A stretch of 64,000 nucleotides of DNA from Sphaerolaimus hirsutus. Its lineage: Eukaryota; Nematoda; Chromadorea; Monhysterida; Sphaerolaimidae. The notes beneath the pieces are model-generated. The model had not been told where the DNA came from and searched no databases. It was given only the letters and a program-made list of their open reading frames with translations. The translations under genes were made by a program, and so were the position numbers. Of this stretch, positions 1,527-62,962 are shown one piece after another. Location: the NCBI GenBank assembly GCA_964036195.1, contig OZ038457.1:3382635-3446634 (forward strand), given 5' to 3'. How positions within the stretch are numbered: position 1 is the first letter of the stretch; the number at the start of each line of letters is the position of its first letter.

Positions 1527-2171
1527 GGACAGGATGTGATGCCAAAATTGGGCATTTACATGAGAGCTGCAGATGGCAGTAACCTTTTACCAGAGGCCAG
1601 AAATGTGCCTGTCACCAGTGACATTCAAAGGCAGTTGATCAAACACTGCAAATTGGAGAGTGATGACCAGTCAACACTGGTAATATTTTCTGATAAACAG
1701 GGCCAGCCAATGCATGCTGCCCATGTGCCACTGCACAAAAATGAGCCCCCAACTGAAGTGCTCATAGGCAAAGTGCAAACTTTGGACAAAAGTGAATGGG
1801 CAAAAATGCTCAATATTGGCAACTGCACAGATGCAGAAAAAGCCAGGTTAGTTGATGCACTGTTTGAGCTGCGCCATGCTTTTAGCTCCATGTACAAAAC
1901 AGATGCATGCCAAAATGTTGATGAAATTGGATGCACAGATGTGGAGCATGAAATTGACACAGGTGACACCCTGCCATTCAGAGTCCCACCAAGGCGCATT
2001 CCACTTAGACTGCGCCCAGAAGTAGAAAAAATGCTCAAGGACTTGCTTGACCAAGGGTGCATTGTGCCATCAAATAGCAATTACAGCAGTGCTTTTGTGC
2101 TAGTGAAAAAGAAAGATGGCTCATGGAGATTCTGTGTGGATTTCCGCCAGTTGAATTTGAACACAGCGTGA
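1527..2171 (+). pseudogene. Pol: protease-RT linker and start of reverse transcriptase
   Basis: This continues the protease frame after the premature stop. It includes the RT fingers motif KKDGSWRFCVDFRQLN (about 2110-2156), characteristic of Ty3/gypsy RTs. The frame hits a stop at 2169-2171, but the sequence that should follow (DSYPLPRVDD) is found in another frame straight after, so there is a small indel near 2160-2170. Confidence 0.85.
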
Positions 2172-5419: not shown

Positions 5420-5693
5420 CAGCGATTTTACCCCCATCAGCCTCATTATGCATAATAACCCTCACATCATCAGTGGCGCCAACAACAGGGTCTCGGGGCA
5501 AAAATAATTGAAAATATTGTCCGGTTGTCCATTCCCAAACCCCAGCCAAAACGGTGCAAACTATGCACATTGCCAAAAGAAAAATCACGATTCCAATTAT
5601 CAAGACATTTAGGAAGCGGTCCAGGGAAGTCCGTTTGAAGGCGGCAGTGCCGCTGTTTTGCATCAATTTTGTGTCCGTGCCGGCGAACACCAC
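5420..5693 (-). CDS. ATP8B: ATP8B gene B exon: TM3 and loop
   Basis: The 274-nt exon starts [15 protein letters not shown] and [11 protein letters not shown], then a hydrophobic TM3 segment and the TM3-TM4 loop ([14 protein letters not shown]). It differs from 50123-50396 at eight positions, all synonymous by my reading. The donor GTGGGTGGGGG is G-rich. Confidence 0.95.
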
Positions 5694-20612: not shown

Positions 20613-20812
20613 NNNNNNNNNNNNNNNNNNNNNNNNNNNNNNNNNNNNNNNNNNNNNNNNNNNNNNNNNNNNNNNNNNNNNNNNNNNNNNNNNNNNNNNN
20701 NNNNNNNNNNNNNNNNNNNNNNNNNNNNNNNNNNNNNNNNNNNNNNNNNNNNNNNNNNNNNNNNNNNNNNNNNNNNNNNNNNNNNNNNNNNNNNNNNNNN
20801 NNNNNNNNNNNN
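20613..20812. other. Assembly gap, 200 N
   Basis: Exactly 200 consecutive N. The round number suggests a placeholder gap rather than a measured length. Confidence 0.98.
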
Positions 20813-37187: not shown

Positions 37188-37466
37188 CGATCAAATCTCC
37201 AAATCCATGCTGATGCGAGAAAGCATATCCCGACCTAAGCGACCCCTTCCTGGACCTAAGTAGGGCGCCCACAGGCCCCCTACGAGTGGTAAGGGGCTTA
37301 AGGGGCAGTTCAAAGCCCACGCCGCCTTTCCGTTTCGTTTTCAGGTGCCGCTGCAGTTGGTGTTGCGTAAGGCGCAATTTGTCCGACATGGTAGGGTTCA
37401 AGTCCATCCAGAAATAGCGCAGACCGTACACGGGTAACAATAGCATTACTAGGGTTAGCAGGATGC
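37188..37466 (-). CDS. ATP8B: ATP8B gene A exon: TM10 and cytoplasmic tail
   Basis: 279 nt. The hydrophobic [18 protein letters not shown] is the end of TM10, followed by a basic tail and [15 protein letters not shown], the ATP8B tail motif. Acceptor CCCCCAG, donor GTGGGT, so at least one more coding exon follows. Confidence 0.9.
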
Positions 37467-40400: not shown

Positions 40401-43400
40401 TACGGTATTTACAGACTGTGATCAAAAACGAAAAAGTAAAAACTTAAAAAACACAAAAAGCAACCAAAAAATTACCTGCGCAGAGTAGCCGCAGAAAAAC
40501 GAATACCAAAAATGAGCCAGCGTGAATGCGAAATTTTTGTAGAAAAAATAGCGAAGGAATTTTGACATTCTGAGATATGACCATCGGCCGTGGACCAGCA
40601 GCAATCTCTCGAGAAATCGAAATTGCGCTATGCTGAAATCCGACGCCAATACAGCCTGTAAAGTCATGTTGAGATACACTTTGAATCGAGTCAAATGATT
40701 CAATTATAACGTATTTAACCCAGGAGTTGTTAAAAGTACCGACCGTGTTTCAAAGTATACGTAAACGTAAATTATTTCTTTTTACGCACCTCATGAGTAC
40801 AGAAAACGTAAAGTAAAATATTTTAATTTTACTCAAGAGCACTTTTCCCAGGAAAACGCAAAGTAAAATATTTTACTTTTACTCAAGCACTTACCCCAGG
40901 AAAACGCAAACGTGAGTATTTCAAAGAAATTTTGCCCAAATTTTCACTAAAATCATAAATTTTCATACATGTTGCCCATTCTCACCTCAATTCACTAGTC
41001 CATGTGCTTCTTTGTATATTTTCAGCCATGTTAATACCCAAACAATGAATTTTTGTGAAATTCCCAGACCAGTTTCAAAAAGGCCCTCACAACTTATCCA
41101 CCCGCAAAATGGGCACCTAGCCAAAAAACCCGCACCTGCATGCCTTCCTGGCCGGAAATGCCCACCCCAATATGAGCGCTCTTAATCATGGAGACATCAT
41201 TGGCCCCATCCCCGATCGCCAACGTAACGGCCTTTTTGTTGCGCTTGACCAACTCGACTACGAGCGCCTTTTGCAGCGGCGTGACGCGGCAGCACAAAAC
41301 GGCCTTGCAGCGGCACGCCACGTCGAGAAACAGCATCTGAGTGTGATGGGTGGGGTTGAAACGGGTTCGTGATCCCGATTCGGAATCTTGAAAAGGTTCG
41401 GGTTTTGTGGTCCCGGTCCCGATCTTGGAAACTAAAAAAAACAAAACAATATTGATCCCGAAAAGTCGATCCCCCGTTTGAACCATAGCGATGTGGGATT
41501 TTGATTGGTCGGCAGTTTAATTGAAGTAAAGCGGTATAATCACAAGAGTTTTGGAAAAATTTTGGACGCCCGATTCATTTTTGAGCAAATGTTCCGCCCT
41601 TTTCAGTGCCTGCTGAATGGTTAGGTTCAGTTCGGCATTCCACGATTAATAATAAAATTTACAGTTTTTGCATTTAACAATACAGTTTACAGTTTTTTTT
41701 TACACATTTTCAACTTCAAAATATATAATCCCTGAAAAAAAATCCTTCAAATCTACCCGGAACAAAAAATCCCCCCCAAACCTCCAAATCGGGACACAGC
41801 GCATGTATCAAACTGTGTCCACTAATGACCAATCCGTAGTCACTGGAGGCGGCGATCGCAGCCAATCCGTCGGCGCTGCCGCCCGCGTCCAACGTGTCGC
41901 TGGTGGTCGACTCGGCGTCGCACATTGCTGATGATGTGGCTGGGGGGGGGTATTTAAGGGGTAAGGGTAGGGGGGTATCCCATTGTGCCTGTACACTGTG
42001 CCACACACACTATTCAGTTTCCAATTTTTCCAACTGCTAGAGATTTTAAATGCTGATAGATCAGCTTTTAACGCATGACAATTTACCGGAATTAGTTGAT
42101 AGTGTTGATGTACTTAGTAGATAAAACATTTTCATTCCGACAAAATCAAAGTTTGAAGCTAATTCGACACTTCTCAAAATACTGACATTCCGATCGGGGG
42201 GGGGGGGGTATTTGAGGTGGGGGCTTCAGGTTGTGGCGGACTTGACATATTTCTTATCATCTGGTGACACCTTATCACATTTTCTTATCATCCCACTTCA
42301 TGTAAGACGCCGGTCAAATTTGTAAATTTACCTGCCTGGTAAACTTTCCTTCGCATTCTACAGTTGATACGTGTCATCCGAAATTTTACATTCTATTTAC
42401 ATGGGTACAAATTCCCCGCGCTATTGGCTACAGTCCAGGGCCAGGGCAATTCAAACAAAAAACCCCACCCCTAAAAAAATCACACCATGATGCCTCAACG
42501 ACGCGGTCGACCCGGGTCGACTAGCCAATCTCGACTGAGTGAGGGAACCCCCGCCGCCCGGCACGAAGTCGACCAGGGAGGCGCCGTTGTTGTTCAAGCT
42601 GCCGCTGGCGGCCGCCAGGCGCTGCTGATTCTGCTGCGCCTTATATAGGGCGCGACGGGTCGCCTGTGGGCGGAGTCGAGTTGAGAGTGGGCGGAGTTTT
42701 AGGTGGTTATCAGGACTTATTTTTGATGGTTTGATTTATTTTGATTATTTGCCAAGCCTGCGCCAAACAGCTGAGACTCGCTCTGCAAGTGCGCAGAACC
42801 ATTATGTGTATACTCGGCGGACACCATACCTAGTATGGAAACCTACCGTTATTTAATGAATATAATATTATGATAAATTTCGAAATTAATTATTCCATCG
42901 TAAAAACGAAATAATATGATAAAAAAACTGTATAATTTTTGGTTCTTCATTCATATGGGTTATGGTAGGTTTTCATACTAAGTGTGCTGTCCGTCGAGTA
43001 TACATATTTCTACCCTCAATTCGCCTCCGTACAAATCCCAAAAAATCAAACTTTCACAAAAAATTGGCACTCATCCAACCCGCGCAACAAACCCACTTTC
43101 AACTGAATCTCCACATCCCTCAGATCTTCCCCATCGATCACGAACACCTCGGCCATGGTGTCCGTGAGCAAACGACACGAATAGCCTATATTAATGGCTG
43201 TTTCCTGTTTGTCGCCGGTCAACACCCACAGTTTGATGTTCGCCGCCGCCAAATTGGCTATGGCCTCTGGCACGCCGTCTTGCAGTCTGGGGGGGGGGGG
43301 GGGTTATTCGGGATTGGAAGGTTTGAGGATTGTGAGTAGGAGTTAAACGGGACAAGATTTTCGGACCTTTTGAAGATTTTCGGACATTTTGAATTTACTG

Positions 43401-46400
43401 AAGAGGCGCACTGAATTTTTGTTCCGCGTTCGGATTTTTTTTCACTCCGCACTGGGGCGATGGCATTTTTCAGTGTTTCGTAAAATGGATAAATAGTTTG
43501 GGGAAGGGGGAACAGGGGAACAATGGAGTCATATGGTTTGATCTGGTGGGAATTTGTTGGACTTAATGCCATTCGCACACGATTATAATGTGAATATTTG
43601 TTCAAGTAAGTTTGCGTCCGGGAGATTTTTTGTTCCGCACGAAAAACCGTTCGGATCAGGAAACAACCGTTTCAATGTCCTGTGCGTCAATATCGAGCGT
43701 AAATTGAGTATCGGAAACATACGATAACAAGATATCAATACCAAAAAGTAATAGTCAACCCCAACCTATGGGCCCACACACGCTAGTTGACATCGACACC
43801 AAATGTCAACTGGTTCCGATCCAGATTCAAAGCTTGCTGACGAGCCGATGAACGACGTTCAAATGCAAGCTTTGAATTGGGAATGGAACCAGTCGACATT
43901 TGGTGTCAATGTCAACTAGCGTGTGTGGGGCCTTTGTATCAATAAAAAAACCCGCCCCCAAAAAACTCACTTATCCTCAATAGCAGTGGCGCCCAGAAGC
44001 TCCAAACCCGTCTCAATTTCCTCATAAACCTCATCCAACCTTTCCCGCCGATCTTCCAACGCGCAGGCGGCGTCCCTTTCTTTTTCCCGCCACGCGTCAA
44101 ATTCCGCCTGCGGCACTATTCGGTGCGCCACGCACAACGTGCGCAGACCGTCGCCGGCGAATCTACGGTACGGTAAACTTTGGACATTTACCGGAGATTT
44201 GATTCCGGTTAGAATGGTGGTAGTTAGAGGGACGGTAATTTGTGGCCGTTTACCGGAAAACAAGCCCAAGCCTATGCATGATTCCTGGGGGTAGGGTTCA
44301 AACGGGATCCCGATCCCGATCCCGGATCCCGTGAAATTCCGGGATTTAGCAGTCCCGATCCCGAAACCCCAATCCCGATCCCGATCCCGATCCCGAAATC
44401 CAAAAATACCAATCCCGATCCCGATCCCGAAAACTTTCAAATCCCGATCCCGATCCCAAGAATCTCCCAAGTCCGGGATCCCGATCCCGGAAGAAATACT
44501 GGAAATTATAAAAAGTGAAAAAATGACATTTTTGCGTGCAAAAATGTGAACGCAAACCCCCAGCGTCCATTTTATGTCGCTTTTCTGGCATCCAACAGAG
44601 TTCTGAGACCTTTATGAACAACTGTGAATGCCAGAACAGTGACGAAAGTCTCTATCCCTAGACCCCAATCCCGATCCCGAAAAAATGCCAATCCCGATCC
44701 CGATCCCGATCCCGTGACCCCAATCCCGGCCAATCCCGATCCCGATCCCGAAATCTCAAAATACCAATCCCGATCCCGATCCCGATCCCGAAACCCCAAT
44801 CCCGATCCCGATCCCGAAATCTCAAAAAGTGAATCCCGATCCCGATCCCGAAAAGTCAATCCCGTTTGAACCCTACCTGGGGGTGAGTGGGATCATGTAT
44901 TTTTGCATTCCACAATAGGTAAAAAAATCCATAATATTTAGTTAAAATAAAGTGATGAGAAAAGGCGGTTCTTTTTCTGATGTGACATCGTATTTAGATT
45001 TCACTGTAAAGTGTGCGGTCAGTAGCCCGCCATACAGCATACGATCCGGTAAACATACAACCAGGCAAACACAACCCATTCAACCAACCCCAAAATCACC
45101 CCCCCCCACCGTACCGATCCAAATGGGCCACCGTAATCGGCTTTACGGTAGCCGAACTCCTTTCATTCAACCTCTCCAGCACCACCGTATCAGCCCCCTT
45201 GCAGTAGAGCTCGATGGGGCCGGCGGGGGTGGTCGCGTCGGCGGCGCGGCGCACCAAGACGGACATGCGCTTGCGCACGTTCGTGAAGTCTAGGATGGCT
45301 AGCAGTTCGTAGGTCTCTTCGCAGCCGGCGACCTGCGAGGTTTGGAGGGGGGGGGGTATTTGAGGTGGGGGGTTAGGTTAGGCTTCAGGTTGTGGTGGAC
45401 TTGACGCTTTTCTTTATCACCTAGTGCCAGTTCCTGGCAGTGTAAAGTGTACAGTCTAATGTCATGACGAATGTCATGCAAATTTGTCAATTGTCATGCA
45501 GTGTCAAGTCAGTGTCAAGTCAGTGTCGATTGTCATGCAAAGTTCAGTAATAAAATATTTTCGTTTTGTTTTGATTGGCATAATTTTAAATGACATTTGA
45601 CACTTGACCAAACACTTTACAGGGCCCGCAAACTGCCCTATGACGCACCACGCACACACAAAATGCCAATTCCGAACGAACCCTTCCAGAGTTTCCGTCA
45701 AAAAGTCACTCACCTCAATAGTGATACTTTTCGGCGACCTATTTTTGAACACATATCCAAAACACCTGGCCGCGCTAGTCAACGCAGCCTCATCAGGGCT
45801 CTGTGCCAAATAAGCCAACTGGTCCTCCTTCATTTCGGGCATTACGGTATGGCAAAATGCCAAAAGGCGCCAAAATTTGTCAACTGCGGGCCGGGCGGCG
45901 CGCGTGTCGTCAACTAGAGACTGGTCGGGCCAAGTGAAACCTTTTTCGTGCCACGGATTCCAAGAAAAGTCTACTTGTCCGGCGCTGGTCGTCGCGCCGC
46001 TATTGGTGGCCACCTGAAAGTGGGCGGGGCTTAATGTGAAACTTCCCGTGATTTGTGTTCTGCAACAAAAGCCTCGCGGTCGGATTTGATCGAAATTTCT
46101 GTGATAAAGTGCACACTGAACGATAAAAATTGGCCAGGGAGGAATATTTCATGCGAGAGCATGGCTTAGAAAGTTTTCGTAAAAAGGCGGTAAAAGGCTT
46201 AAAAAGGTAAAAAGTCGGAAATAATATTAATGCTTGACAACACTTTTTAAACACAATCAAGTGCTCGACTATTCATTTCACAGCGACCTCATTGGCAAAT
46301 TGTTAAATCTACTAGTGATGGCACTTCAGTGAGGTTTCATATATTTTGTAGGTTTTTTTTAGGTTTTATAGGTGTGCAGTGACCAAATAGGTGAATAAAA

Positions 46401-49400
46401 ATATAGCGGTGCTAAATATATTGAAATGATTGCATAGATGAGGCATCTACTTCTAAAAGTCCATAAGTCGAAAAAGTACATATTGCACAGATTGCATTTT
46501 AAGGTTCAACTTTCATTTTTTCAGTGATAGCTGTCCAATATTTCTGGACTCGCTGATATTTTAGGTGCCGCAAACTTTGTTTTAATAAGGGTACAATTTT
46601 CTGAATCTGCTCTCAATATTACTGAGAGCAACGCCATTTTCAGAAAAGATGCAGAAAAATTCCAGCACGAAGTAAATAAGTCCATCAAACAAAAGTAGAC
46701 TTATTGACTTCTTGTTGAAATTGCTTATGGACTTAACTCTCAGCTGTAATCATTTTTTGGTGTAAATTTGCTGTAAAATGGTGTTAAGAGGTCAAAATTA
46801 TTTTGGAAAATGGCAATAAATGAGTGGGACCACTTCTAGATAAATGTTCTGAATTTAACTCAATTTTGCCGATTTTGGACTTATCGACTTTTGGCAGTGG
46901 AGACACCACAAATAAATATTATACGCGTTGAAGGGAACCTGAACTAAAACATAAAAAAAATTTTCTACATGGCTGGCAGATGCATAAGCAGCGTTCATGC
47001 TATATAAAAATGGGAGACAACATTATTAAAAGAAGATAGATCACTTAGATACATTATTGGGGATAATCGTAATGAAAATATTCATTCATTTACAAGTACT
47101 TTGGCAGATGCAAAAACAACTGTGTTCAATCGTAACTGCCCGAATCTCATATGGGAAAAGTTGTGCACCAAATTTTCCAAGGTGAGCAACCTAATGCGGT
47201 ACGAAAATATCGTTTTTAATCAGATGGTACATGGTAAATACATTAAATTTTTCAAAATGGACTTTTCCGGTTTCCGTTCATTACTGTTCCGCATATGCGA
47301 ATAAATGTGCTCGCATGCGAAAAGACTAGAAACGAGACAACAACAAAAATGTAAAATGTAAAACGAAAATACTCAACGCACTGGCCTCAACTGGTACGAA
47401 TCGTCCAGTGTGAAACGGACACGTGCCTGCACCCACACACGAAAATTCATGTGCATATCTTTAAAAAAAATGGGTTTCAGTCTGGGGTTGCCAAGCTAAC
47501 AGACCCAAAAATAATTCAGCTATCTATATCCCCAAAATGCTCCAGCTATCTACATATCTATCCTATATTTCTCAGTTATCTCCCGAGGCGGACATTTTGG
47601 ATTAGATTACCATGTCATACCTTTTGACCGATCTTCACCTTCAAAAAAAGTAAATAGTTCATGTGCCTATTGCCTATTTTATGCTAATTTTGGCTATATC
47701 TGCATACGCTAGTTCCCACATTTTCCCTCTTTTCTCCCTTCTACACCTTGAAATAGCCAATATATTACCCCCCCCCCTCCCCCAAACCGCCCCCCCACAA
47801 AATTTAAGCTATCTATCCCTCTTTTTCGAGCGATTTTTGGTCTAGTCAACCCTCTGGGGGGTCAAACTCTAGAACACCCCTCCTAATGACCCCCCCTCAC
47901 AAAATTTTTCTATGCGAGCAGGGAGGGTACATTTCATCTACCTTGATAAACCCAGGCTTCAGAGGAACGCATATCGGTGGTGATAAGGATAATAAATTGA
48001 GATAGTTGTGTAGAATGTAGTCTATTTACAATTACAGGAAAACGATACACTATTCTAAAGGTTAGACAATCTCAAATATTTCTTTTACAAACGAATACAC
48101 ATTTCCATATTTATTTACAAGCGATTCCACTAAGGAGACAAGCTAATTTCGCTGAGCATCATTTTAATTCCCCTATATTAAATAGAGCAATCGTGCAAAT
48201 TGTAAAGAACAAATACCTAGATGATGATTTCATAAGGATCACCTTAAAAAGGTAAATCCACAATAACACTGTCAAATATAAAAACACCCAAAAATAAAAA
48301 AACCTTCCAACCTGCTCACTATTGCCACTAGCGGTGGACGTGGCGTAGCCGTACAGCCTGCCGTCGATGCTGCACTTGTTGAAGGTCATCACATTCTGCG
48401 TCAATGTGCCCGTCTTGTCGCTGAAGATGTATTGCACCTGGAAAATGGAGATGGGGAGAGTGTGATTTCAAAAACTGTTTTTAAAAGGGTTTGGATTTTA
48501 AAATACCGAGCTTTAAGATTTTTCGAATTGTGAATTTCAAAATCATTTTTGCCTGTATTTTTCGTAATGGCGAACACCCATTCGCACTTGTATAATCGTT
48601 GACCCAAAGAGTTAGTTATCCACCCCTAAATTTTCCTGAGACATAAATATGGAGTTTTTCGAATACCCCCCCCCTCCTTCCAGACAAACACCATACAAAT
48701 CACCATACAAACACCATCACTTTTAAAGCAAAAAATTTTACCATCCAAAACCCCCCTGGCTCCAGCTATCAAATCAAATCCCCCCGGGCTCCAGCTATCC
48801 AATCAAACCCTCAAATGCCCCCCCAATTAACCTGTCCCAACTCCTCATTAAGGGTAGTGGTCCTGGATTTTGCCGCAGTATCTGACACGGGGTCGTACAT
48901 TTCCGCGTCCCAATTTATCCACCAGGAATGCATAAAACGGATCACTTCCACGCTGGGATGGATTTGGGGGTGATTTTTTTTTTGGGGGGGGGGGATTTTC
49001 GAGGGAGAAGGGCGACTTTGATTCTTTGGCAAATGTTGATGGGGGACTTATATTGATAATTTAAATTGTCAGTTTGTTTTGTTACACTCCAATTCTGACA
49101 TACCTGACATATAGGGAAATTGGCACGACTGTGTTCAGCAAAATCGCATACGAGAAGAACATCAAACCAGCTATGGCTGATATTTGACCTGCGTGTGTAA
49201 TGATAGGCACCTTACTAAAGAAAACTAGGTATTTTTAGACCGAGATGTATTTGTAATAAAATAAAAAATAAAATGCATGCATGCAGAATCTGATAAAGTA
49301 TGAGATTCAGATGACATTACGCCGTACATTTTTCCGGAGGAAACACTCGATCATGACGTGATCACTTTCGTCGCCGTCACGCCTTCCATAAGTTCTCGGC

Positions 49401-52400
49401 TGGCCGTCTGCCAGCCAAAGACATAACTCCTATCTGTTTGCAGAGTATCGTGTCTGCCGAGTATACCATATGCTATCGAATAATTTTCCGGGGGTTATTT
49501 TTAAGTCAGAAAATTTTTATTCAATGCTTCATTCCTTTACGCAGGGCCGTATCCAGGGGGGGGCGGGGGGGGGCTGCAGCCCCCCCCCCTCCCGGGCTGA
49601 AACAAAAAAGTGACCGGAAAATGGCACTTTTTCAACGTCAGCGTAAAAAAATTTTGCGCGCAAGCGCGCATTTTTCACCAAACGTGATGTATTATCTACA
49701 GATTTGTTCCCTGTGGCCGAAATCGTTACAAACATGCTCAATTGTGTGCTGTTTGCTGTATTTGTATGTATATTTACATACATATACAGCGTTCCAAGGC
49801 GCTGGCGCCAACGCCAATGGCGCCATGGCGTTGCGCCTACTAATGGCGCCAGCGCCATGGCGCCATTCCGCCCCTGTATACGTAAAATTTTAGGGGGGGG
49901 GGGCTGAGCCCCCCCCGCTCGCCGGCCTCAGTAAACAAACAGCCCCCCCCCGCTCAAAAATCCTGGATACGTCCCTGCCTTTACGTATATATTTTACAAG
50001 CATTTTGAGAGTCCAGAAGTTTTCGCATACCAAACACTAACTCCAGGCAAAGAGATAGTTATTCAAAACCCCCTTTGTCTGTTTATTCCTACCTTCCCAC
50101 CCCAAAAAAGACCCCCACCCACCAGCGATTTTACCCCCATCAGCCTCATTATGCATAATAACCCTCACATCATCAGTGGCACCCACAACAGGATCCCGGG
50201 GCAAAAATAATTGAAAATATTGTCCGGTTGTCCATTCCCAAACTCCAGCCAAAACGGTGCAAACTATGCACATTGCCAAAAGAAAAATCACGATTCCGAT
50301 TATCAAGACATTTAGGAAGCGGTCCAGGGAAGTCCGTTTGAATGCGGCGGTGCCGCTGTTTTGCATCAATTTTGTGTCCGTGCCGGCGAACACCACCTGT
50401 GTTGGAATTGTCAATGGTATATAGCGACAATTTTGTTAGACAAGCATTAGGGTTCAAACGGGACCGCGGTCCCGGTACATGGTTCGGCAAATAGTCGGGA
50501 CTGGGGCGGTCCCGGTCCCGGTCCCGATGCCCCAGTCCCGGTCCCGGTCCCGACAATCGAAAAAAGCCAGTCCCGGTCCCGGTCCCGACCACCCGGTCCC
50601 GGTCCCGGTCCCGGAAGTTTGTAGTGGTCCCGATAATGGATGGAAAAAATGTGTTTTTTTTTCATCCAGTCTACAAAATTTTTCCCACGCTTCTAACTAT
50701 AGTCACGAGGCAACAAATACAGGTATATTAAGCTAGCCGTAGTACTTTTTGACGTTATGGATAGCATTTAAAGTGTTGATTTCTGCCGCAAAATCCATTT
50801 CTGACGACCCAGTCCCAGTCCCGGTCCCGACAAATCCCAGTCCCGGGTCCGACACCCCAGTCCCGGTCCCGGTCCCGACAATTGAAAAATGCCAGTCCCG
50901 GTCCCGGTCCCGACACCCCAGTCCCGGTCCCGGTCCCGACATTAGAAAATTTTTGGTCCCGGTCCCGGTCCGGAAAACTGGTCCCGTTTGAACCCTAACA
51001 AGCATAGGACTGAGCCGGGTAGGATTGGAAAAAAATCAGACGTCAGTGTCTGTCAATGTTACGTGTCAGACAATGTATTGTTATGTCTATTGTGGTCATA
51101 TTATGACTGTGGAGGATAGCATTATAGGCAGTGATTTCTTTCAAAAATATCTATTTTTACCTCGACTAGTTACGTATATCGCCTTTTGTCGAACATTCGT
51201 GACTTCAAGTGAAGTTCAGCATGGAATAGTGCTTAAAAAATGTTGTACAATAAGGCTAATACATTGACAGTGATGTTACACACTCTAGAAGTATGTGGGA
51301 GCACATTGACAAGATATTATATACTACACTAGCATATCACGGCTTATTATTACACGGTAGCATGAATAAATGGAAGCTTTTACACTAAAATTGCTCCAAA
51401 AACAATTAAAACAATCACCAATGGTATCGTGTATGAGAAATTGCGCGCTTGCGCGCAAAAAAATAGCAAAATACCTAGTGCAAGTCTACCAGAAAATTTG
51501 CCTTTTGATGTTTTTAAATTTAAATCAGTTTACACCCTTTGATTTTTTTTAAATCAGATTTTTTTTATAAAAAAATCAGTTAAAAAAGCAAGTGCCAACC
51601 CTAGAGCCGGGTCACCATTAGTGTTCAAAAATGGAAACCAAATCTCTCTAAAAAGAGCTATTAAAAAATAAATAATATTTTTTCAGATCATACGCCACGT
51701 CATCTACCGTGTCTAAATACTGACCACATCCAATCCACTACCCTTATCAACCTTCAACCCCCCTAACCCCCCCCCCCCCCGCACTGACCAATCCATAGCA
51801 CCACCTGGTGTTCCTGAGCACGCAGCCGCGCAGCAGCACCGACTCAACGTCGAGCGGCACGCGCACGTCGCCCCACCGCAGCTGGCCGTCGAACGTGGAC
51901 AGCCGGTTGTTGGGCGCCTCGCATTCTACCTGGGGGTGGAGGGGGGGGGGGGGGTAGATTGGGGTTGGGTTTACGATATCGATGGTCGATTTTTTTGTGA
52001 AACTCGATATTTGATATCGATAAATTGTATCGATCCCGAAACGTCGATCACTACTCCAACTAGGGTTGGGCAAATATAGTTTGAGTGCTATAACGATTAT
52101 CGACAAATACTACAGCTGGGGCAAAATTTGGCGATTTTGAGCAAAAATTAGGAGAAAATCCATCAAAAATTGCTCCACAGCTTTAGATAGCTGAGCAATT
52201 CGGACGGGGGTGTGGGGAATAGTGGCCAAAAAATTCCTCGGGACAGATAGACAGCTGACCGATTTGAGGTGGACTTGCCACCTCCCCATTGGCAAGCCCT
52301 GAACTAGTGATGGAAACAGCGCCAGGACTTTCGCGCCAAGAGCCAATGGCGAGAGAAAAATGGCGCCACATCAAATAGGCTCCAAGCGCCAAAAGGGCCA

Positions 52401-55400
52401 CGGCGCTATTTCCTCTGGCGCTAGCGCCAAGAGCCAGAGCAATGGGGCTTTTCCATCGCCTCCCTTGACCATCAAAATCCGACAAGGTATCTCTTTATAC
52501 ACACCACCTCAGAAACTCGAACCCGCGACGCGCCCCTCCAACCTCGCCATTGAACTTTGACAGCTGCACCAGATCGTCTCCGAGGAGCTCCGCAGTTTCG
52601 GTGGGCGATTGGCGCGCCTTAAGGTTCGTCTCTCCGTCCAATTCTGCGGTTTCCACGTAGCACAGACCGCACGGCTCCGAGCTGAGGTTTTTAGATGTGA
52701 CGAGATTTTATTTAAATAAAATTAGGGTTAGGGTCCAGGGATCGGGGTTAGGGTCTAGGGATCGGGATTAGGGTGTCGGGATCGGGATCGGAATTTTGAC
52801 CAAAGTTCTACAATTGAGAGTTTTTTCACAAAAAGGTCTAAAATTACACTTGAATGCCATAAATGCCATAAAAGCATACTGGACGTTTCAGTTCACATTT
52901 TGCAGTGAGTCATTTTTCACTTTTTATCATTTCCACTATTTCTTCAGGGATCGGGAATGGGGCTTTGGGATCGGGATCCGCGTGAACCTACATCTGCACA
53001 AAAATCACATAACCCCCCCCCCCTCAAACTGACCTACTAAGCAACAACAAATCGGCGGCGACAAAGTTGTCGCTCTGCAGTCGAATGATGTCGCCGACGC
53101 GAATGTCCTGCCACCGCTGCTGCTGCAGTTCGCCGCCGCGCACGACGTCCGTTTGTCGATTGTTTACCTGGTTGTCGCTGCGGCGGCGTTGCTGTTTGGG
53201 GGGGGGGTATTTGAGGGAACTTGTTGGTTTGTTTGTTGTTGTTGTTGTTGTTTTTGGGGGGGGGGGGGCGAGATCGGGGAGGTAAATATTTTTTAAATCA
53301 GTAAAAAACACTAGAAAGGTGATTGCCGTCCCTTTTGTTAGGGTTTGTGTTTATGCTTTTGCATATTACTTTGCACATCAGTAACACAACGTTAGCTAGC
53401 GATTTTTATGAATATAAATTTAATACCGTATATCCTCGAATAACTCCCCCCTCAAAAAGTCTGACGAAAAAATCACTCTCCCCTCTTAAATAACCCCCCC
53501 CCCTAGGGTTGGGGAACCGAACCGACCCGAACCGAACCGAACCGAGAACCGAGTACTATTTTGGAACCGAGAACCGAGAACCGGAACCGAGCTTGAGAAC
53601 CGAACCGGAACCGAGAACCGGCACTTATACCCGGAACCGAAGTAAATACCCGAAAGAACCGAAATTTTTTAGGAATCTTTAAGTTTTTAAACAGCGTTTT
53701 TTCAACACCTACATCTAACCCTTTAAACAGCAGCTGAACATCTTGGTGCATGTTCAGAATTGCAAAATTCATCTGTTTGCAAAATGATTGTGCGGGAGCG
53801 TGTAATTTCACATATACTCCAGCGACATTACACCTTACAATGAAATCTACCATATCCCACCCTGAATAAAAGAACCAACATAAAAAAATTTCATCATATT
53901 TATCAAATTGCTTTGATAAATATGATGAAATTTTTTTATGTATGTTCGTTTATTCAGATGGGATATGGTAGATTTCATTGTAAGGTGTAATGTCGCTGCA
54001 GTATACACATTATCACTGGTAGTAGTTTTCATTGGTATTGTGGCAGTTTTAACCGTAGTTGGCAAAAGTTATTTACGTTTGTACTCAAAATAATACGCGT
54101 ACTCATCCGCGTACTACATAAATACATTTACGTTTCCTCCAGAAAAAATACCAGTACTCATTTACTCGTGTACTATTTGAAAGTACGCGAGTACAGAAAA
54201 CGTATACCGTATTTCCTCGAAATACCCCCCGGGGGTGATTGTTTCATAGTGGTCCCGAGAGGGGGGGGTTAAACGAGGGGGGGGGGGGTATTTCGAGGGG
54301 GGGTTATTATTTCACAAGAAGATTTTTGAAAACCAAGTACGAAATTGTCGTCTGAAACGTACGCAGACGTCGAAAAATGCAACAAAAACCGCCATTTATA
54401 AGGTTCTGTAGACTAATATTAGTATGTAGGTGGTATGTACACTGTTCTAACGTGACACCGACATTGTTTGAACGTGTGTTCTGTAGTACAGAACACAAAC
54501 TACAGTTATTGTCATGTACGTTCCCTTTACACTCAATTTGGGGGGGGGGGTATTTCGAGGGGGGTGATTGTTTCGTAGTGGTCTCGAGAGGGGGGGGTCA
54601 AACGAGGGGGGGGGGGTATTTCGAGGGGGGGGGTATTTCGAGGAAATACGGTATGTTTGCTTTTACAGTTTTTTAAATACCAGTATTATTATAACAACTT
54701 TGATTTCTGCATTCTACCATGAAATAATAAGCTGTGATATGCTCCTGTAGTATGAAATATCCAACCAATGTACTTACATGTAAACTTGGGTATATTGTTT
54801 TTCTGTTGTTCAGCCGATTATTACCCGATACCCGGTTATTTTATTACCCGGAACCGAAATTTTGATCATTTTAGAACCGAAAGAACCGAACCGGAACCGA
54901 GTTAAAGAACCGAACCGAGAACCGGAACCGAAAATTTTCAGGAACCGAGACCCGATACCCGAACCGAAATCTTTTGGAACCGAGAACCGAGAACCGGAAC
55001 CGAAAATTTTGAAATTCCCAACCCTACCCCCCCCCCTCTGGGAGAAAAATATCCTACAAAATTTACAAAAATGATCGATGAAAATACAAAATAATGTTAA
55101 CGTATAGCAGCGACAGCTAGGGTTCAAACGGGATCCCGATCCCGATCCCGGATCCCGTGAAATTCCGGGATTTACCAGTCCCGATCCCGAAACCCCAATC
55201 CCGATCCCGATCCCGAAATCTCAAAAATACCAATCCCGATCCCGATCCCGAAAGTTTTCAAATCCCGATCCCGAGAAACTCCCAAGTCCGGGATCCCGAT
55301 CCCGGAAAAATTAGTGGAAATTATAAAAAATGAAATAATGACGTTTTTGCATGCAAAAAAGTGGATGCAAACCCCCAGCGTCAATTTTATGCCACTTTTC

Positions 55401-58400: not shown

Positions 58401-61400
58401 TCATGCCCACGCACAAAGAAATATTGATTCCCTCTCGACATAGCAGAAATATTGGTTCCCTCTCCACTCAACATACATGTGCACTCGAAAACTGCCCTGC
58501 TAAATTGAACTAAAATAGAGTTGACAAGAAAAGCAGTTGACATCAAGCGTGTGTCTCCGTCAACTCTCAACAAACCACATCATCGGCTGCGTCCTTGCCG
58601 GCGCTCACGGCTAACACGAACAGGAGGGGTAGGGCGGTCGACCACACCGGGTAGGGCGAGATTTGGGGCACTGCCTATGCGTAGGGTGCAGGGCTGGCAG
58701 GGCGGAGGGAAACAGACGAGGGCATTTGGGCGCTTTTGAGGCACTTGGGTGTGTTTGTGGAGTGGCTGTATACTCGGCGGACATCGCACTTAGTATGGAA
58801 ACATATTTACCATGACCCATCTGAATCATGAACTAAAAATTATACACTTTTTCATCATAATATTTCGTTTTTACTATGGAGTTATTGATTACGAAATCTA
58901 TCACGGTTTTTTTCATGAAATTATGGTAGGATTCTGCATATACTTTGCGCTCCGTCGAGTATACTACTTCTCAAACTTGAAACAACTCAAAACTGAAATG
59001 TCATTTCAAATTTTCGAAACTTTTGAAAAGGTTCAGATTCTGGGAATGACACTTCTGATATTTACACAGCTAATAAATAAATACATTAAAATATATATTC
59101 ACTTAATGAGCCACTTTACACAACTGATGCAAAACAAGGAGCTCTCCAAAAAGCGTTAAAAAAGGTGCAAACAAACAAGGGACAACACAAAGTTTGACAT
59201 CGCTGAGCTAAATAATACTAAATATATAAAATACACAGGGACGGACAGTCGGGCGGGAAACGGTACGGTAATTACCGGTAATTTACCACGATAAAAATAG
59301 CTGTAAACGGCACTCTTAAGTTTTGCATATTTACCGGTAATTACCCTTAGGGACCGGTAAAATTCCCACCACAACGGACAGTGCATTGAACTACAGAAAT
59401 ATCTAAAATCGCTTTAAAAAGACAAAAACCACAATCATACGAAAAAATCCCATTTAATCAAGCCTCCAAAGCATTGCAATAAAACGCCAAAAAAGTCACC
59501 CGCCCGCAAGGGATGCAAGGATGAAATGTATTATACAAATAAATGCCGCCGTGGCGCTTTTGCAACACCCCCCAAAACACTAAATAACCACTTAAACCTA
59601 ACCCCCCCCCCCCCCCAAAAAAAAAACAAACAAAAAAACACCAGAAAAAACCCGCACCATATCGTCGACTGCATCTTTAGCAGCGGTGACTGCCAAAACG
59701 AAGAACAGTGGCAGGATCGTGGTCACCGGCGACAGCGGCGAAATTTGCGGTATTAGCTGAGATTGGCCCATTTTTTAATTAGATGTCTAATTAATTAGAC
59801 TGTACACCAGTGACTTTTCACACCTTGCACGCGTGCTTCAGTTGGAAGAGTGCCAATGATATTTAATATGTGCGATTTTCATATAAATATGACGTAATTC
59901 ACAGCTGTTTTAAAATTTTACGTTAACGTATTCACAACAATGAATTTTTTAAAATACTTTTATTACCATTGGCACGCTTCCAACGTGAGACATAAGTAAC
60001 TGCGCGTGCAGTTCAGGGACGTATCCAGGATTTTTGAGCGGGGGGGGGCTGCTTGTTTACTGAGGCCGGCGAGGGGGGGGGCTCAGCCGCCACACTCCCC
60101 CTTTAAATTTTCCCTACACAGAGGCTGAATGTCGTTTTGGCGCCAGCGCCATACATAGGCGTCACGCCATGGCGTCATTGGCGTTGGCGCTGGCGCTTAC
60201 AACCGCTGTATATGTATGTAAAAATACATAAATATAGTGCAGCAGGCTCAAAATTGAGTCCATTTCACATGGAGTTGGGACTAAAGCAACTGACTTACTG
60301 AAAATACCGCTTGTGTAGTGGAAAATGTGCCTCAAAAATTTTACAAACACCTCAAAAATTGACACCGAAAGTCGTATTTTCCTACATTTTTCATGTCTCA
60401 CCCGGAAGGGGGGGCTGCAGCCCCCCCGCCCCCCCCCTGGATACGGCCCCGGTGCAGTTGCAGAATTCGATGTCACTGGTGTATGTGTATATATTTGATG
60501 GGTTAATAGAGGTTTTCTCAAGTTAGTTTGGGGTAGGGTTGGAAAAAAAACGTTTTTTTTTTAACTCGATGTTTTTTTAAAAAAAAAAACGTTTTTTTTT
60601 TTTTAAAAACGTTTTTTTTTAAAAGCTCCCAGATATGACCTAGTGTCAACATATATAGGTATATCAGACACTGGCAATAATCTGTGATGTTAAATATGAC
60701 CATATAATGGCTGTGGAGCCATGGGATAGCATTATAAGTGGTGATTTGTGTCAAAAATATCCATTTTTCGTCGACATATCGTTCGTATATCGCCTTATAG
60801 TCGAATGTTTGTGACTTCAGGTAAAGTTTGGCACGGAATGGTGATCAAACAAGGTTATAAAAGGAGGTTGTTACTTTGGGAGTGAAGTTACACACTGTGG
60901 AGGTACATGGAAGCACATTACCTCAATATTATATATTACAGCAACATATGTCGGCTTATTCACCCATGGTAGCACATAGAAATGGATGTTTTGATACTAA
61001 AAATGCAACAAAACCAATGAAAACAACCACCAATGTCAATTTGTGTGTGAAATTGCGCGCTTGCGCGCAAAAATTTTGCAAAATACCTAGTGCTTAGTAC
61101 TAAAAATTTCAGCCGATGTTTTTTTAAAAAAAAAAACATTTCGGACGTCATGTTTTTTTTTATTTAAAAACGTTGTTTTTTTTAAAAAACGTTTAAAAAA
61201 AAACATCGGCCAACCCTAGTTTGGGGGTGAGTATATAGCAGGGGTCAACGGAGCGAATACCGACAAATGAGTCAAAAATTTCAAGATTGCAAAAGCTAAT
61301 ATGTTAAATCAGAACTGAAATGTGACTAGTTGACAATCCTCAGGGACGTAGCCAGGATTTTTGAGCGGTGGGGCGGATTGTACAGGGGTGGGCATTTTCA

Positions 61401-62962
61401 GTTACCGCTGGAAAAACGCGATAGCTTGAGCTATGGTTGAGCTATCACAGTGAAATTTTAACACAATAGAGTAGACTCCATAGGACACCTATTCTGAAGT
61501 TTGCAACCCAAACGGCCACATTTTGTGTGGGTTATGGAACACACAGTTTTTTTGTGTAATTTTGTGTCTTAACCCCCTTTATCTCGGGACTGGGGTACTG
61601 TTCGAGAAAAAAAAAAAATTTGGTCGTAGCCCCGACCCCAAACCCCAACATATTTACTCAAAGGGCATCAAAATCGGCCAATGTACGACAGATTGGGACG
61701 ACGCCAAAGCCAGTGACCCCCCCCCTCAAATGCCACCCTTGATTTATCCTATCGTGACGCCGAGTCACAAAATTACACTAAAAACTGTGTGTTCCACAAC
61801 TCACCCAAAATGTGGCCGTTTGGGTTGCAAACTTCAGAATAGGTGTCCTATTGAGTGTACTCTATTGTGTTAAAATTTCACTGTGATAGCTCAACCGTAG
61901 CTCAAGCTATCGCGTTTTTCCAGCGGTAACTGAAAATGCCCACCCCTGTATACGGAGCACAGCGAACGAAATTTAACCCCTGTCGTAAGGGAATGGCGCC
62001 ATGGCGCTGGCGCCATTCTTAGGCGTCACGCCATGGCGCCACTGGCGTTGGCATTGGCGCCAAAACAGCAGGATATATCTGTATTTTACAGACGTCTAGA
62101 GCGACATGGACAGGAATAGAATCCATCTTCACTGGCTTTGAAGCTGCGGAGACTGGTCAGCCGAAAATATACGTTACGTGAGGGGAAAATGCGCGCTTGC
62201 GCGCCAAAAATTTTCAAACAGTCGACAAATCGTCTTCTGGAAGTGTCATTTCTGGCACATTTTTTGGTCCAGCCCGAGAAGAGGGGGGGGGGCCGCCCCC
62301 CCTGGCTACGTCCTTGACAATCCTAGTCGCTATTTATATACATTTCAATCGGGGGTCACCAGGATTTTGACCCTCGCGGGGGGTAAATTTTTAACCACAC
62401 CCCCTAAATAATCTAAAAGTTCGTGCAGCATCGATCTGTTTGCAGTAGCCAGGAAAAATAAAGGTTGTGAAATTCGTAGGTAAAGCATTGCTATCATTTA
62501 CCCAGACAGGACGATTTTTGACAGGATCTAAAATGGCGAAACTGCCTTTACTGCAGAGAAACACTTATCTGCTTTTTAAATAGTCACTTATTTCCTGTCA
62601 GTGTAAATAACTTCAAAATGACCATTAAATCTTGCCGAAAAAGTGATTATATTAGTATTATCCGAAAAAATATTAGTATTATCCGCATTGCAAGATGATT
62701 AAGCATGTTAATTTTATTAGAATAATCATCAACCCCTATCAAATGCAAAAAAGTGCCAAAAATTGTGCTAAAAATGTGTAAAGTGACAAAAAACACAGAC
62801 AAGTGCATAGTGCCGTGCATTTACATGAATCCAAAAATCTGCACCGACCTGTAATATCATCAGCACTAAAAAATAAAAATTGGCCAGCCTCTGAAACTGC
62901 TCAAATAAATTTTTGGGCACAAAACTGATCGCATTGTATTTTGACGTTCTGATGTAATTGTC
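37188..62962 (-). CDS. ATP8B: ATP8B-type phospholipid flippase, gene A (TM1 to C-terminal tail)
   Basis: Exons from 5' to 3': 62849-62962; 59658-59756 or 58576-58674; 53034-53191; 52543-52681; 51789-51929; 50123-50396; 49104-49188; 48832-48952; 48312-48437; 45714-46013; 45115-45332; 43971-44162; 43097-43286; 42486-42663; 41782-41939; 41136-41336; 40476-40655; 39806-39915; 39266-39423; 37837-38280 (interrupted); 37188-37466. All phases agree and give about 1220 residues, close to human ATP8B1 (1251). Family landmarks are DGET, PISL in TM4, DKTGT (phosphorylated Asp), [20 protein letters not shown] and the tail [14 protein letters not shown], which places it with ATP8B. It would need a CDC50 partner and act at plasma or endosomal membranes. 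The 5' end is outside the window. A transposon in exon 37837-38280 introduces an in-frame stop unless spliced. Confidence 0.93.
37837..38280 (-). CDS. ATP8B: ATP8B gene A exon: TM8-TM9, interrupted by a MITE
   Basis: The upstream part (38138-38280) encodes [20 protein letters not shown] and TM9 up to VIFVLV; the downstream part (37837-37942) encodes [18 protein letters not shown] and the start of TM10. Removing the 189-bp element and one copy of its CACCAG duplication leaves 249 nt in perfect phase with both neighbouring exons. As it stands, an in-frame TAA occurs inside the element. Confidence 0.88.
37943..38131. mobile_element. Foldback MITE inside ATP8B coding exon
   Basis: Ends GGGGCAGTCCCAGACC and GGTCTGGGATTGG, arms with TGTCAAATGTCAAGC units meeting at CAAACGTACGTTTG near 38040. 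Flanked by the exact 6-bp duplication CACCAG (37937-37942 and 38132-38137). Confidence 0.9.
38425..39076. mobile_element. hAT-type element, TAGGGTTGG family, in gene A intron
   Basis: Exact 8-bp duplication ATTGTCAC. AACGTTTTT arms; the internal sequence closely matches 12098-13209 without its nested element. Confidence 0.92.
39266..39423 (-). CDS. ATP8B: ATP8B gene A exon: TM7
   Basis: 158 nt with [17 protein letters not shown] and a TM7 span ending FFIPYGAF; acceptor TTCTCAG, donor GTGCGT. The split Arg codon joins the preceding SLR motif. Confidence 0.93.
39806..39915 (-). CDS. ATP8B: ATP8B gene A exon: TM6
   Basis: 110 nt beginning [20 protein letters not shown] and containing the conserved [13 protein letters not shown] after TM6. 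Acceptor TTTGCAG, donor GTTTGC. Confidence 0.93.
39967..40407. mobile_element. Element with CCGTTCTATTGGAGG units
   Basis: Termini TACCGTATTTCTTCTAATAG and CTATTAGAAGAAATACGGTA. The arms carry repeated GCCGTTCTATTGGAGG units. It shares the TACCGTATTTC start with 23004-23439 but a different internal motif. Confidence 0.82.
40476..40655 (-). CDS. ATP8B: ATP8B gene A exon: TM5
   Basis: 180 nt, 60 codons, phase 0. [20 protein letters not shown] then [20 protein letters not shown], the highly conserved entry to TM5 with its Lys. Acceptor TTTACAG, donor GTAATT. Confidence 0.96.
41136..41336 (-). CDS. ATP8B: ATP8B gene A exon: P domain hinge
   Basis: 201 nt, 67 codons. Contains [19 protein letters not shown] and [20 protein letters not shown], the Mg-binding GDGAND motif, then ISGQEGMQ. 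Phase 0 at both ends. Confidence 0.96.
41351..41487. mobile_element. Decayed TAGGGTTCAAACGGG-type element
   Basis: Ends TGGGGTTGAAACGGG and CCCGTTTGAACCATA; very short and lacking a clean target duplication. Confidence 0.65.
41782..41939 (-). CDS. ATP8B: ATP8B gene A exon: N/P domain segment
   Basis: 158 nt. Low-complexity acidic stretch ([19 protein letters not shown]) then [20 protein letters not shown], equivalent to the ALIITG...L block of ATP8B proteins. The acceptor is preceded by nine C. Confidence 0.9.
42486..42663 (-). CDS. ATP8B: ATP8B gene A exon: variable N-domain insert
   Basis: 178 nt, phase 0 start. [20 protein letters not shown], a Gln/Ala-rich helix, then a flexible PGGGGS stretch. 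Poorly conserved region in the family, placed by splice phase and position. Confidence 0.82.
42809..43002. mobile_element. TA-flanked palindromic MITE (194 bp)
   Basis: TATACTCGGCGGA ... TGTCCGTCGAGTATA, same family as 10827-11017 but diverged in the centre. Confidence 0.8.
43097..43286 (-). CDS. ATP8B: ATP8B gene A exon: TGDK motif
   Basis: 190 nt. [20 protein letters not shown] then [24 protein letters not shown] is the ATP-binding hinge motif. The acceptor follows a run of about sixteen C. Confidence 0.96.
43773..43929. mobile_element. Foldback MITE, CACACGCTAGTTGACATCG family
   Basis: Inverted arms as at 23911-24064, within a gene A intron. Confidence 0.82.
43971..44162 (-). CDS. ATP8B: ATP8B gene A exon: N-domain end
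   Basis: 192 nt. [16 protein letters not shown] and [20 protein letters not shown], matching the conserved LRTLC and GATAIEDK blocks. Acceptor CCGTAG, donor GTGAGT. Confidence 0.95.
44292..44875. mobile_element. hAT-type element with GGGATC arrays
   Basis: TAGGGTTCAAACGGGA ... CCCGTTTGAACCCTA with exact 8-bp duplication CCTGGGGG. The internal non-array part matches 8845-9360 and 55118-55670. Confidence 0.93.
45115..45332 (-). CDS. ATP8B: ATP8B gene A exon: N domain with KGADT
   Basis: 218 nt. [20 protein letters not shown] and [16 protein letters not shown], the nucleotide-binding motif. The donor GTACGG is followed by a run of nine G. Confidence 0.96.
45424..45638. mobile_element. Foldback MITE, TGTCAAATG family
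   Basis: GCCAGTTCCTGGCAGTGTAA ... TTTACAGGGCCCGCAAACTG with mirrored TGTCATGCAAA units, in a 381-bp intron of gene A. Confidence 0.65.
45714..46013 (-). CDS. ATP8B: ATP8B gene A exon: N domain
   Basis: 300 nt, 100 codons, phase 0. [27 protein letters not shown], and [20 protein letters not shown] (SPDE motif of the nucleotide-binding domain). Confidence 0.96.
46014..48311. other. Large intron of gene A
   Basis: About 2.3 kb of mostly AT-rich sequence without recognised element termini, with C-runs near 47770-47800. No additional exon needed, as the neighbouring exons join in phase 0. Confidence 0.6.
48312..48437 (-). CDS. ATP8B: ATP8B gene A exon: phosphorylation motif
   Basis: 126 nt. [20 protein letters not shown] with the phosphorylated Asp in DKTGT, then SIDGRLYGY. 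Phase 0 at both ends. Confidence 0.97.
48832..48952 (-). CDS. ATP8B: ATP8B gene A exon: post-TM4 stalk
   Basis: 121 nt. [20 protein letters not shown] and [11 protein letters not shown] leading directly into the DKTGT exon. Acceptor ATCCCAG, donor GTTAAT followed by G8. Confidence 0.95.
49104..49188 (-). CDS. ATP8B: ATP8B gene A exon: TM4 with PISL
   Basis: 85 nt. [24 protein letters not shown] replaces the PEGL of ion pumps and marks P4-ATPases. The matching exon of gene B lies outside the window. Confidence 0.96.
49542..49977. mobile_element. hAT-type element, CAGGGCCGTATCCAGG family
   Basis: Exact 8-bp duplication CCTTTACG; empty site in gene B near 5275. GGCGCC-rich centre, G/C homopolymers near the termini. 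Confidence 0.93.
50123..50396 (-). CDS. ATP8B: ATP8B gene A exon: TM3 and loop
   Basis: 274 nt, same protein as gene B 5420-5693 ([28 protein letters not shown]3). Donor GTGGGTGGGGG. Confidence 0.96.
50448..50997. mobile_element. hAT-type element with GGGACC arrays (motif variant)
   Basis: TAGGGTTCAAACGGGA start and GTTTGAACCCTA end, exact 8-bp duplication ACAAGCAT, empty site in gene B near 5858. The array hexamer is CCCGGT throughout instead of the CCCGAT of its relatives. Confidence 0.92.
51020..51603. mobile_element. hAT-type element, TAGGATTGG variant, AAATCAG arms
   Basis: TAGGATTGG ... CCAACCCTA with exact 8-bp duplication GAGCCGGG; empty site in gene B near 5873. Arms carry AAATCAG units. 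Confidence 0.9.
51789..51929 (-). CDS. ATP8B: ATP8B gene A exon: actuator-TM3 linker
   Basis: 141 nt, 47 codons, [10 protein letters not shown] to TRWCYGL. Acceptor after a C14 tract; donor GTCAGTGC followed by a G14 tract. Confidence 0.95.
52306..52456. mobile_element. TAGTGATG...GGCGCC element, decayed
   Basis: TAGTGATGGAAACAGCGCC at the left and GGGGCTTTTCCATCGCC at the right. The GGCGCC units are partly degenerate. Absent from gene B. Confidence 0.65.
52543..52681 (-). CDS. ATP8B: ATP8B gene A exon: actuator domain with DGET
   Basis: 139 nt, [18 protein letters not shown]; acceptor CCTCAG, donor GTTGGA. Confidence 0.95.
53034..53191 (-). CDS. ATP8B: ATP8B gene A exon: actuator domain, first part
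   Basis: 158 nt starting [17 protein letters not shown], with VGDIIRL and [10 protein letters not shown]. Acceptor CAAACAG after C11, donor GTCAGTTTGA followed by G12. Confidence 0.95.
53813..54005. mobile_element. TA-flanked palindromic MITE (193 bp)
   Basis: TATACTCCAGCGACATTA ... TAATGTCGCTGCAGTATA with long mirrored arms around AAATTGCTTT near 53907. Same size class as 10827-11017. Confidence 0.85.
54205..54653. mobile_element. TACCGTATTTCCTCGAA element, nested
   Basis: TACCGTATTTCCTCGAAATA ... TATTTCGAGGAAATACGGTA, similar to 23004-23439. Confidence 0.85.
55118..55670. mobile_element. hAT-type element with GGGATC arrays
   Basis: Exact 8-bp duplication GCGACAGC; empty site in gene B near 7863. 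Closely similar to 8845-9360. Confidence 0.93.
57242..57931. mobile_element. hAT-type element, TAGGGATGG variant, AGCGCTTTTT arms
   Basis: TAGGGATGG ... CCATCCCTA with exact 8-bp duplication GTGCAAGA; empty site in gene B near 9968. Arms use AAGCGCTTTTTTT units. Confidence 0.92.
58576..58674 (-). CDS. ATP8B: ATP8B gene A exon 3b: TM2, alternative version b
   Basis: 99 nt, phase 0, [20 protein letters not shown]; same splice sites as 10616-10714 with one synonymous change. Lies about 1 kb downstream of exon 3a. Confidence 0.88.
58769..58963. mobile_element. TA-flanked palindromic MITE
   Basis: Orthologue of 10827-11017, sitting between exons 3a and 3b in both genes. Confidence 0.8.
59658..59756 (-). 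CDS. ATP8B: ATP8B gene A exon 3a: TM2, version a
   Basis: 99 nt, phase 0, [20 protein letters not shown]; two synonymous changes from 11704-11802. Donor GTGCGG with a G-run about 45 bases downstream. Confidence 0.92.
60014..60451. mobile_element. hAT-type element, CAGGGACGTATCCAGG family
   Basis: CAGGGACGTATCCAGG ... CCTGGATACGGCCCCG with exact 8-bp duplication GTGCAGTT. Absent from gene B. Confidence 0.92.
60534..61218. mobile_element. hAT-type element, TAGGGTTGG family, AACGTTTTT arms
   Basis: Exact 8-bp duplication GTTTGGGG. Opposite orientation to 12098-13209 and 38425-39076, with matching interior. Empty site in gene B near 13275. Confidence 0.92.
61341..62316. mobile_element. hAT-type element, CAGGGACGTAGCCAGG family, with foldback inside
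   Basis: CAGGGACGTAGCCAGG ... CTGGCTACGTCCTTG with exact 8-bp duplication ACAATCCT; empty site in gene B near 13390. The interior carries a second transposon at 61383-61948. Confidence 0.92.
61383..61948. mobile_element. Foldback element with TA target duplication
   Basis: Arms of about 190 bases (CAGGGGTGGGCATTTTCAG ... CTGAAAATGCCCACCCCTG) flanked by TA on both sides. The related element at 63368 shows the empty site GGATTGTATACGG. The centre (61570-61765) has no recognisable frame. Confidence 0.88.
62849..62962 (-). CDS. ATP8B: ATP8B gene A exon: TM1
   Basis: 114 nt, [18 protein letters not shown] then TM1. Acceptor ATCGCAG, phase 0. The preceding exon would be past the right edge. Confidence 0.95.

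Follow-up and report, generated by a model that had tools for sequence, protein, structure and literature searches.

The window analysed here is a stretch of 64,000 nucleotides of the nematode Sphaerolaimus hirsutus (contig OZ038457.1, positions 3,382,635 to 3,446,634 of the forward strand), and all coordinates are counted from its first letter. It holds a flippase gene with two versions of its third exon (gene A, exons 3a and 3b) and a second copy of that gene (gene B). The parts of gene A are as follows; the class labels T-like and W-like used for exon 3 were coined in the present analysis.

about 62962 to 37189, minus strand: gene A, a nearly complete gene for a P4-ATPase, probably of the ATP8B/TAT-2 type
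62849..62962, minus strand: gene A exon 2 (TM1), 114 nt, phase 0 at its ends; by ungapped spacing, the Q that closes it is the counterpart of Drs2 Q237
59658..59756, minus strand: gene A exon 3a, of the T-like class (ISPLSPVTT), coding for the TM1-TM2 loop and TM2, 66 bits with the exon-3 profile
58576..58674, minus strand: gene A exon 3b, alternative version (ISPYPVWST), 48 bits with the exon-3 profile
53034..53191, minus strand: gene A exon 4, the first actuator-domain exon, starting in phase 0
37189..52681, minus strand: gene A downstream exons (A domain, TM3-TM10, DKTGT, DGAND, C terminus)

In tblastn, the Trichinella (P0002) and Parascaris (P0003) proteins covered gene A in about 20 blocks, starting at TM1 and reaching almost to the C terminus. 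The joined protein scored 1150.6 bits on TIGR01652 (cut-off 431.25) and passed the cut-offs for PhoLip_ATPase_N and PhoLip_ATPase_C, and PISL, DKTGT, DGET and GDGAND, the defining motifs of P4-ATPases, were all present in its exons. Among the matches listed, the top database proteins were 60% identical to gene A and bore the names ATPase ID, IM and tat-2, while the best of the solved structures was ATPase IC (ATP8B1) with 176 bits, followed by 6k7g, which we take to be ATP8A1 (150), and ATP11C (127). A tree of gene A and 48 chosen proteins (49 rows, containing no P4-ATPase groups other than ATP8B/TAT-2-type relatives) placed gene A within Nematoda (SH-aLRT 100), adjoining Trichinella and Trichuris on a short branch (81).

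The coordinates, lengths, phases, translations and flanking AG/GT that the sequence-only reading had given for 3a and 3b proved exact throughout, as did its count of 20 agreeing residues among 33. Each exon is 99 nt long, in phase 0 at both ends, with AG before and GT after it. The introns around the pair measure 3093, 983 and 5384 nt; the end of exon 2 and the start of exon 4 are both in phase 0, so that the splice sites are compatible, as judged by consensus and phase rather than by function. The donors of both exons are similar to donors picked elsewhere in gene A, namely GTGCGG (exon 17) and GTTTGG and GTTTGC (exons 16 and 19).

To the exon-3 profile, built from 160 distinct exon-3 peptides of relatives, 67 frames of the form AG-[99 nt open]-GT on both strands were submitted; the two exons of each gene copy scored 66, 66, 48 and 48 bits and the next frame 3.6. 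A six-frame scan with the same profile gave 63.7 and 48.1 bits, the next-best stretch reaching 8.5 (E 0.19). Scores so far above those of all other frames in the window rule out a chance open frame, and recognition of 3b by the profile rules out a stray fragment of some other gene. In tblastn with P0002 and P0003, no other exon found a second match within a gene copy.

The two versions match at 61 of 99 nt, and 20 of the 38 differences lie at third codon positions; counted by codon position 1, 2 and 3, the matches number 23, 25 and 13, each out of 33. The NG86 estimates are dN 0.32 and dS 2.2, the latter being near saturation. Among the 15 columns that are at least 80% conserved in relatives, 3a keeps 14 and 3b keeps 13. 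The codon-position pattern, dN/dS and the conserved columns together point to coding constraint on both exons. At the same time, three residues of 3b (by column, Y8, V10 and G26) are absent from all 160 peptides of relatives, and the end branch of 3b in the tree of exon peptides (33 columns, 39 rows) is the longest of all (0.96).

An inverted repeat of about 600 nt with 72% identity (57324-57931 and 60534-61131) encloses both exons, and a related copy lies at 38423-39076; the arms of the enclosing repeat might anneal within the pre-mRNA so that the two exons are looped out, or they might be insertions of one transposon. A smaller inverted repeat (58236-58444) has 98-nt arms, 78% complementary, with a 13-nt loop, and is located downstream of the 3b donor, at a distance of about 130 nt. 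Altogether, 23 pairs of inverted repeats were found within 58000-60300, in a listing made without a control.

Gene B carries the same exon arrangement as gene A, its later exons falling outside the window:

14706-5481, minus strand: gene B
14593..14706, minus strand: gene B exon 2 (TM1)
11704..11802, minus strand: gene B exon 3a, 2 nt differences from gene A, both synonymous
10616..10714, minus strand: gene B exon 3b, 1 nt difference from gene A, synonymous
5481..7490, minus strand: gene B exon blocks 4 to 7 (7338-7490, 6852-6995, 6125-6271, 5481-5693)
20613..20812: assembly gap of 200 N between gene copies A and B

Pieces of a retroelement lie at 801-4411 on the plus strand, roughly 1 kb downstream of the final gene B exon in the window. 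Spread over several frames, they include a gag-type protease (below the curated cut-off), a reverse transcriptase with RNase H, and the zinc-binding and core domains of an integrase, an order of domains that is presumably Ty3/gypsy-like.

Over the seven exon blocks common to both copies, 22 of 968 nt and none of 322 residues differ (19 of 770 nt in the five constitutive blocks), against 4.3% substitutions plus indels and insertions in the introns around exon 3. Exon 3b is preserved between A and B as well as its neighbour exons are. From the gene B pair, which had been said to differ by two and one synonymous changes only, as it indeed does, the sequence-only reading had concluded that both exons are under constraint; the synonymous-only part stands, but the argument is weak, for the comparison of 2/99 (3a) and 1/99 (3b) with the 4.3% in the nearby intron gave Fisher p values of 0.20 and 0.07 and, pooled, 0.03. 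Since the copies are too alike and possibly allelic, their conservation does not count as independent evidence for the pair. It may equally turn out to be right or wrong that A and B are two haplotypes of one gene, set side by side by the assembler, in which case the occurrence in both copies would be a single observation. Such an origin would fit the 200 N gap that separates them and their collinearity, with substitutions, indels and insertions in the introns and no codon with an amino-acid change, although the copies share their orientation within one scaffold; a recent tandem duplication is the possible alternative. The exon pair itself is intact under either view.

The sequence-only reading had also proposed a search for both exons in related species. 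Three protein searches, in which the best 120 of 7977, 777 and 876 matches were listed, yielded 317 different proteins from a database clustered at 90%, where isoforms may be hidden. The stretch between TM1 and the following exon was measurable in 316 of them (P0122 was missed by the pattern and resembles the standard form). Among these 316 listed relatives, it was 41 residues long in 309, 40, 49 and 57 in one each, and 74 in four, that is, exactly 33 residues or one exon more, in Plectus sambesii, Argonauta hians, Pinctada imbricata and Littorina saxatilis. Extra residues at exon borders were seen in Trichuris suis (P0004) after DDL and in Caenorhabditis brenneri (P0059) after ILQ; the 49- and 57-residue records seem to contain translated pieces of introns, i.e., prediction errors that would place introns at these borders. 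The records holding both exons (P0001, P0050, P0090 and P0120, one of them labelled isoform X1), which blur exclusivity at the level of annotation, are tentatively taken as gene-prediction errors. In Littorina, where P0120 is the third record and contains both exons, isoforms X1 (P0109) and X2 (P0118) are of equal length and differ at 15 positions, all inside the exon-3 unit, which at the level of annotation represents either-or use of this unit in another phylum. When the pairs of S. hirsutus and the four species are compared, columns 9, 11, 26 and 30 differ in 5 of 5, and these columns are also variable in the family.

The exons of many relatives fall into one of the two classes. The T-like motif (ISSLTPVTT and near variants) is found in most arthropod records, Trichinella, Trichuris, the annelid Owenia and echinoderms, and the W-like motif (ISSISWYST, LSWFTT) in rhabditid nematodes, vertebrates and some bivalves. 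The split is unclean, the mites P0045, P0067 and P0077 and the cricket P0058 having exons that are T-like except for a W at column 10 (LTW.TT), and 3b itself having V at column 10 and W at column 11. The 33-column tree of 39 chosen rows separated the two classes (97/89) and put 3a with the T-like and 3b with the W-like exons, but 21 of its 36 inner branches were open and 3 starred, and the fork holding 3b received 85/75. In AU tests, 3a and 3b as sisters were not rejected (p-AU 0.66), the sister tree even having the higher likelihood, nor were the within-species pairs of Argonauta (0.43), Pinctada (0.15) and Plectus (0.12); the Littorina pair (0.021) was the sole one to be rejected. Neither the 33-column tree nor the AU tests showed the pairs of different species to be one ancient pair. 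Because the AU test leaves the sisterhood of 3a and 3b standing, their origin within the nematode's own lineage appears quite possible. The presence of doubled exons in nematodes and molluscs suggests that the exon-3 segment is a recurrent or an old point of adjustment. That ATP8B flippases in several animal phyla have, or used to have, an ancient splice switch for the whole TM2 side of the lipid path from entry to exit gate, T-like versus W-like, which changes lipid preference and of which vertebrates, rhabditids and most arthropods each kept one class, would be the far-reaching version of this idea, and we regard it as unlikely.

As judged from the sequence, splicing quite probably picks one of the two exons, which would make 3a and 3b a tandem-duplicated, mutually exclusive pair in an ATP8B/TAT-2-type flippase gene. 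Either exon would be joined between the TM1 exon 2 and the first actuator-domain exon 4, and the products would be two pumps, the same save for the exoplasmic TM1-TM2 loop, which forms the entry gate, and TM2. A working pump could presumably use only one of them, because with a second TM2 all downstream parts of the protein would have inverted topology. The sequence-only reading had held that one exon must be chosen; there are indeed two real versions, and the Littorina isoforms differ only here, while exclusive and regulated use in S. hirsutus is a step that we infer. A frameshift as the cause of exclusivity is ruled out by the 99-nt length, which stays in frame, and steric hindrance in a very short intron is probably out as well, the intron measuring 983 nt. 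As neither of these, the second with some reserve, can enforce exclusivity, a trans-acting regulator or an RNA structure would be needed.

Two other fates of the pair have to be set against this arrangement. Some transcripts might include both exons, since their joint inclusion keeps the frame and four database proteins hold both; but the additional helix would be expected to leave the catalytic domains facing the wrong membrane side, and Littorina X1 and X2 as annotated carry one exon each, so we consider non-exclusive use very unlikely. Somewhat less remote, and still improbable, is the view that 3b, a product of exon duplication, sees little or no use and is drifting or decaying. Its divergence, with three residues unseen in the relatives' peptides, would accord with decay, as would the single T-like exon in the protein records (as distinct from genomes) of Trichinella and Trichuris and the constraint between A and B, which for 3b alone is no more than suggestive (p 0.07). 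A decaying exon would hardly be expected, however, to retain an open frame and intact AG/GT in both copies with no amino-acid change between them, 13 of the 15 conserved columns, and a dN as low as 0.32 against a dS of 2.2 from 3a. Either-or splicing remains the preferred reading.

Exon 3 was also located along the lipid path of the pump. Worm positions were numbered after Drs2 and Dnf1 from the coordinates of ungapped stretches in the structure matches, i.e., by spacing only. So counted, the last residue of exon 2 corresponds to Drs2 Q237, ATP11C Q79 and Dnf1 G230, the first residue of exon 3 to Drs2 Q238 and Dnf1 A231, and, allowing for a loop difference of one residue, ATP11C S91 and ATP11A E114 fall at exon 3 columns 13 and 31. 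A single 99-nt exon would span the TM2 side of the lipid path from the entry gate to the exit gate. In other flippases, recognition of PS is governed by the TM1 glutamine at the position of Drs2 Q237/ATP11C Q79 (PMC12723151, PMC12424579), and the headgroup first binds near G230 and A231 of Dnf1 (PMC11460456). The choline cavity of ATP8B1 is formed by residues of TM1 and TM2, and the size of its headgroup cavity is tied to TM1-TM2 placement (PMC10657443). PC is let through by ATP11C Q79E, via S91 and N352, and by ATP11A E114G near the exit site (PMC12723151).

Exons 3a and 3b differ at 13 columns: 1 (L or A), 2, 8 to 12, 14, 18, 24, 26, 30 and 33. The changes had been described as clustering right after PQISP, which holds for the 5 of 13 in the LSPVTT/YPVWST loop and fails for the other 8 (columns 1, 2, 14, 18, 24, 26, 30 and 33). 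A substrate switch is plausible; that the swap tunes the selection or turnover of lipid headgroups may be proposed tentatively, and we hold it to be rather doubtful. A change of lipid choice is doubtful because the glutamine is common to both forms, as are columns 13 and 31 (T13 and D31), and because 12 of the 13 exchanges are at columns conserved below 80% in the family. The evidence seems to us evenly poised on whether the exons are alternative with the substrate unchanged, the swap adjusting protein folding, pairing with CDC50, autoinhibition, the rate of turnover or how TM2 fits different membranes. The position of the PS-determining glutamine, one residue upstream of exon 3 and in the constitutive exon 2, agrees with an unchanged substrate, as do the T that both exons have, by count, at the ATP11C S91 column, the family variability of the exchanged columns, and the spacing of TM2 columns 14, 18, 26, 30 and 33, which may be roughly that of one helix face if column 24 is excepted. 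Yet column 1, right beside the glutamine and by spacing at the Dnf1 A231/Drs2 Q238 position, switches from L to A, five adjacent loop columns change together at the entry gate, which counts against a null effect, and in ATP8B1 the placement of TM1-TM2 is linked to the size of the headgroup cavity (PMC10657443).

The choice of lipids by P4-ATPases has so far been studied largely through mutants and structures. An either-or exon occurring in nature, which swaps loop and helix along the lipid path and leaves the remainder of the pump as it is, would offer matched pairs of pumps for direct assay. A literature search among titles and abstracts of open-licence papers gave, among the matches listed, no report of mutually exclusive exons for any P4-ATPase, and as far as this literature goes, the present gene would be the first case of splicing exchanging a segment of the transport path of a lipid flippase. 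A paper by Ding et al. (2000) is, to judge by its title, about isoforms of ATPase II and phospholipid specificity.

A close counterpart is found in Littorina saxatilis, where the ATPase ID-like isoforms X1 and X2 likewise swap a 33-residue unit between identical flanks. The exon order is reversed, however, in relation to the three molluscan two-exon proteins, which have the LTPLTT form second, whereas S. hirsutus has its T-like exon first. C. elegans TAT-2 (P0033) is also an ATP8B-type nematode flippase but has the W-like exon ISSISWYST, and splice variants of tat-2 are described as detected only at the first two and the penultimate exons (PMC2572054). The entry gate of ATP8B1, ATP11C, Drs2 and Dnf1 involves the same TM1-TM2 positions, by alignment or spacing, but there the specificity differs by point mutation or between paralogues, splicing going unmentioned in the relevant parts of these papers (PMC10657443, PMC12723151, PMC12424579, PMC11460456). 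Substitution of tandem duplicated exons is frequent in ion transporters and arose repeatedly in vertebrates, arthropods and nematodes, and the survey lists the plasma-membrane Ca2+ ATPase family (PMCA, mca-3); ATP8 and ATP11 terms give 0 matches each in its main text, where P4-ATPases apparently go unnamed (PMC9741552). As in the events of that survey, adjacent homologous exons would be swapped by splicing in S. hirsutus, but the swapped unit here would be the transmembrane wall of a lipid path.
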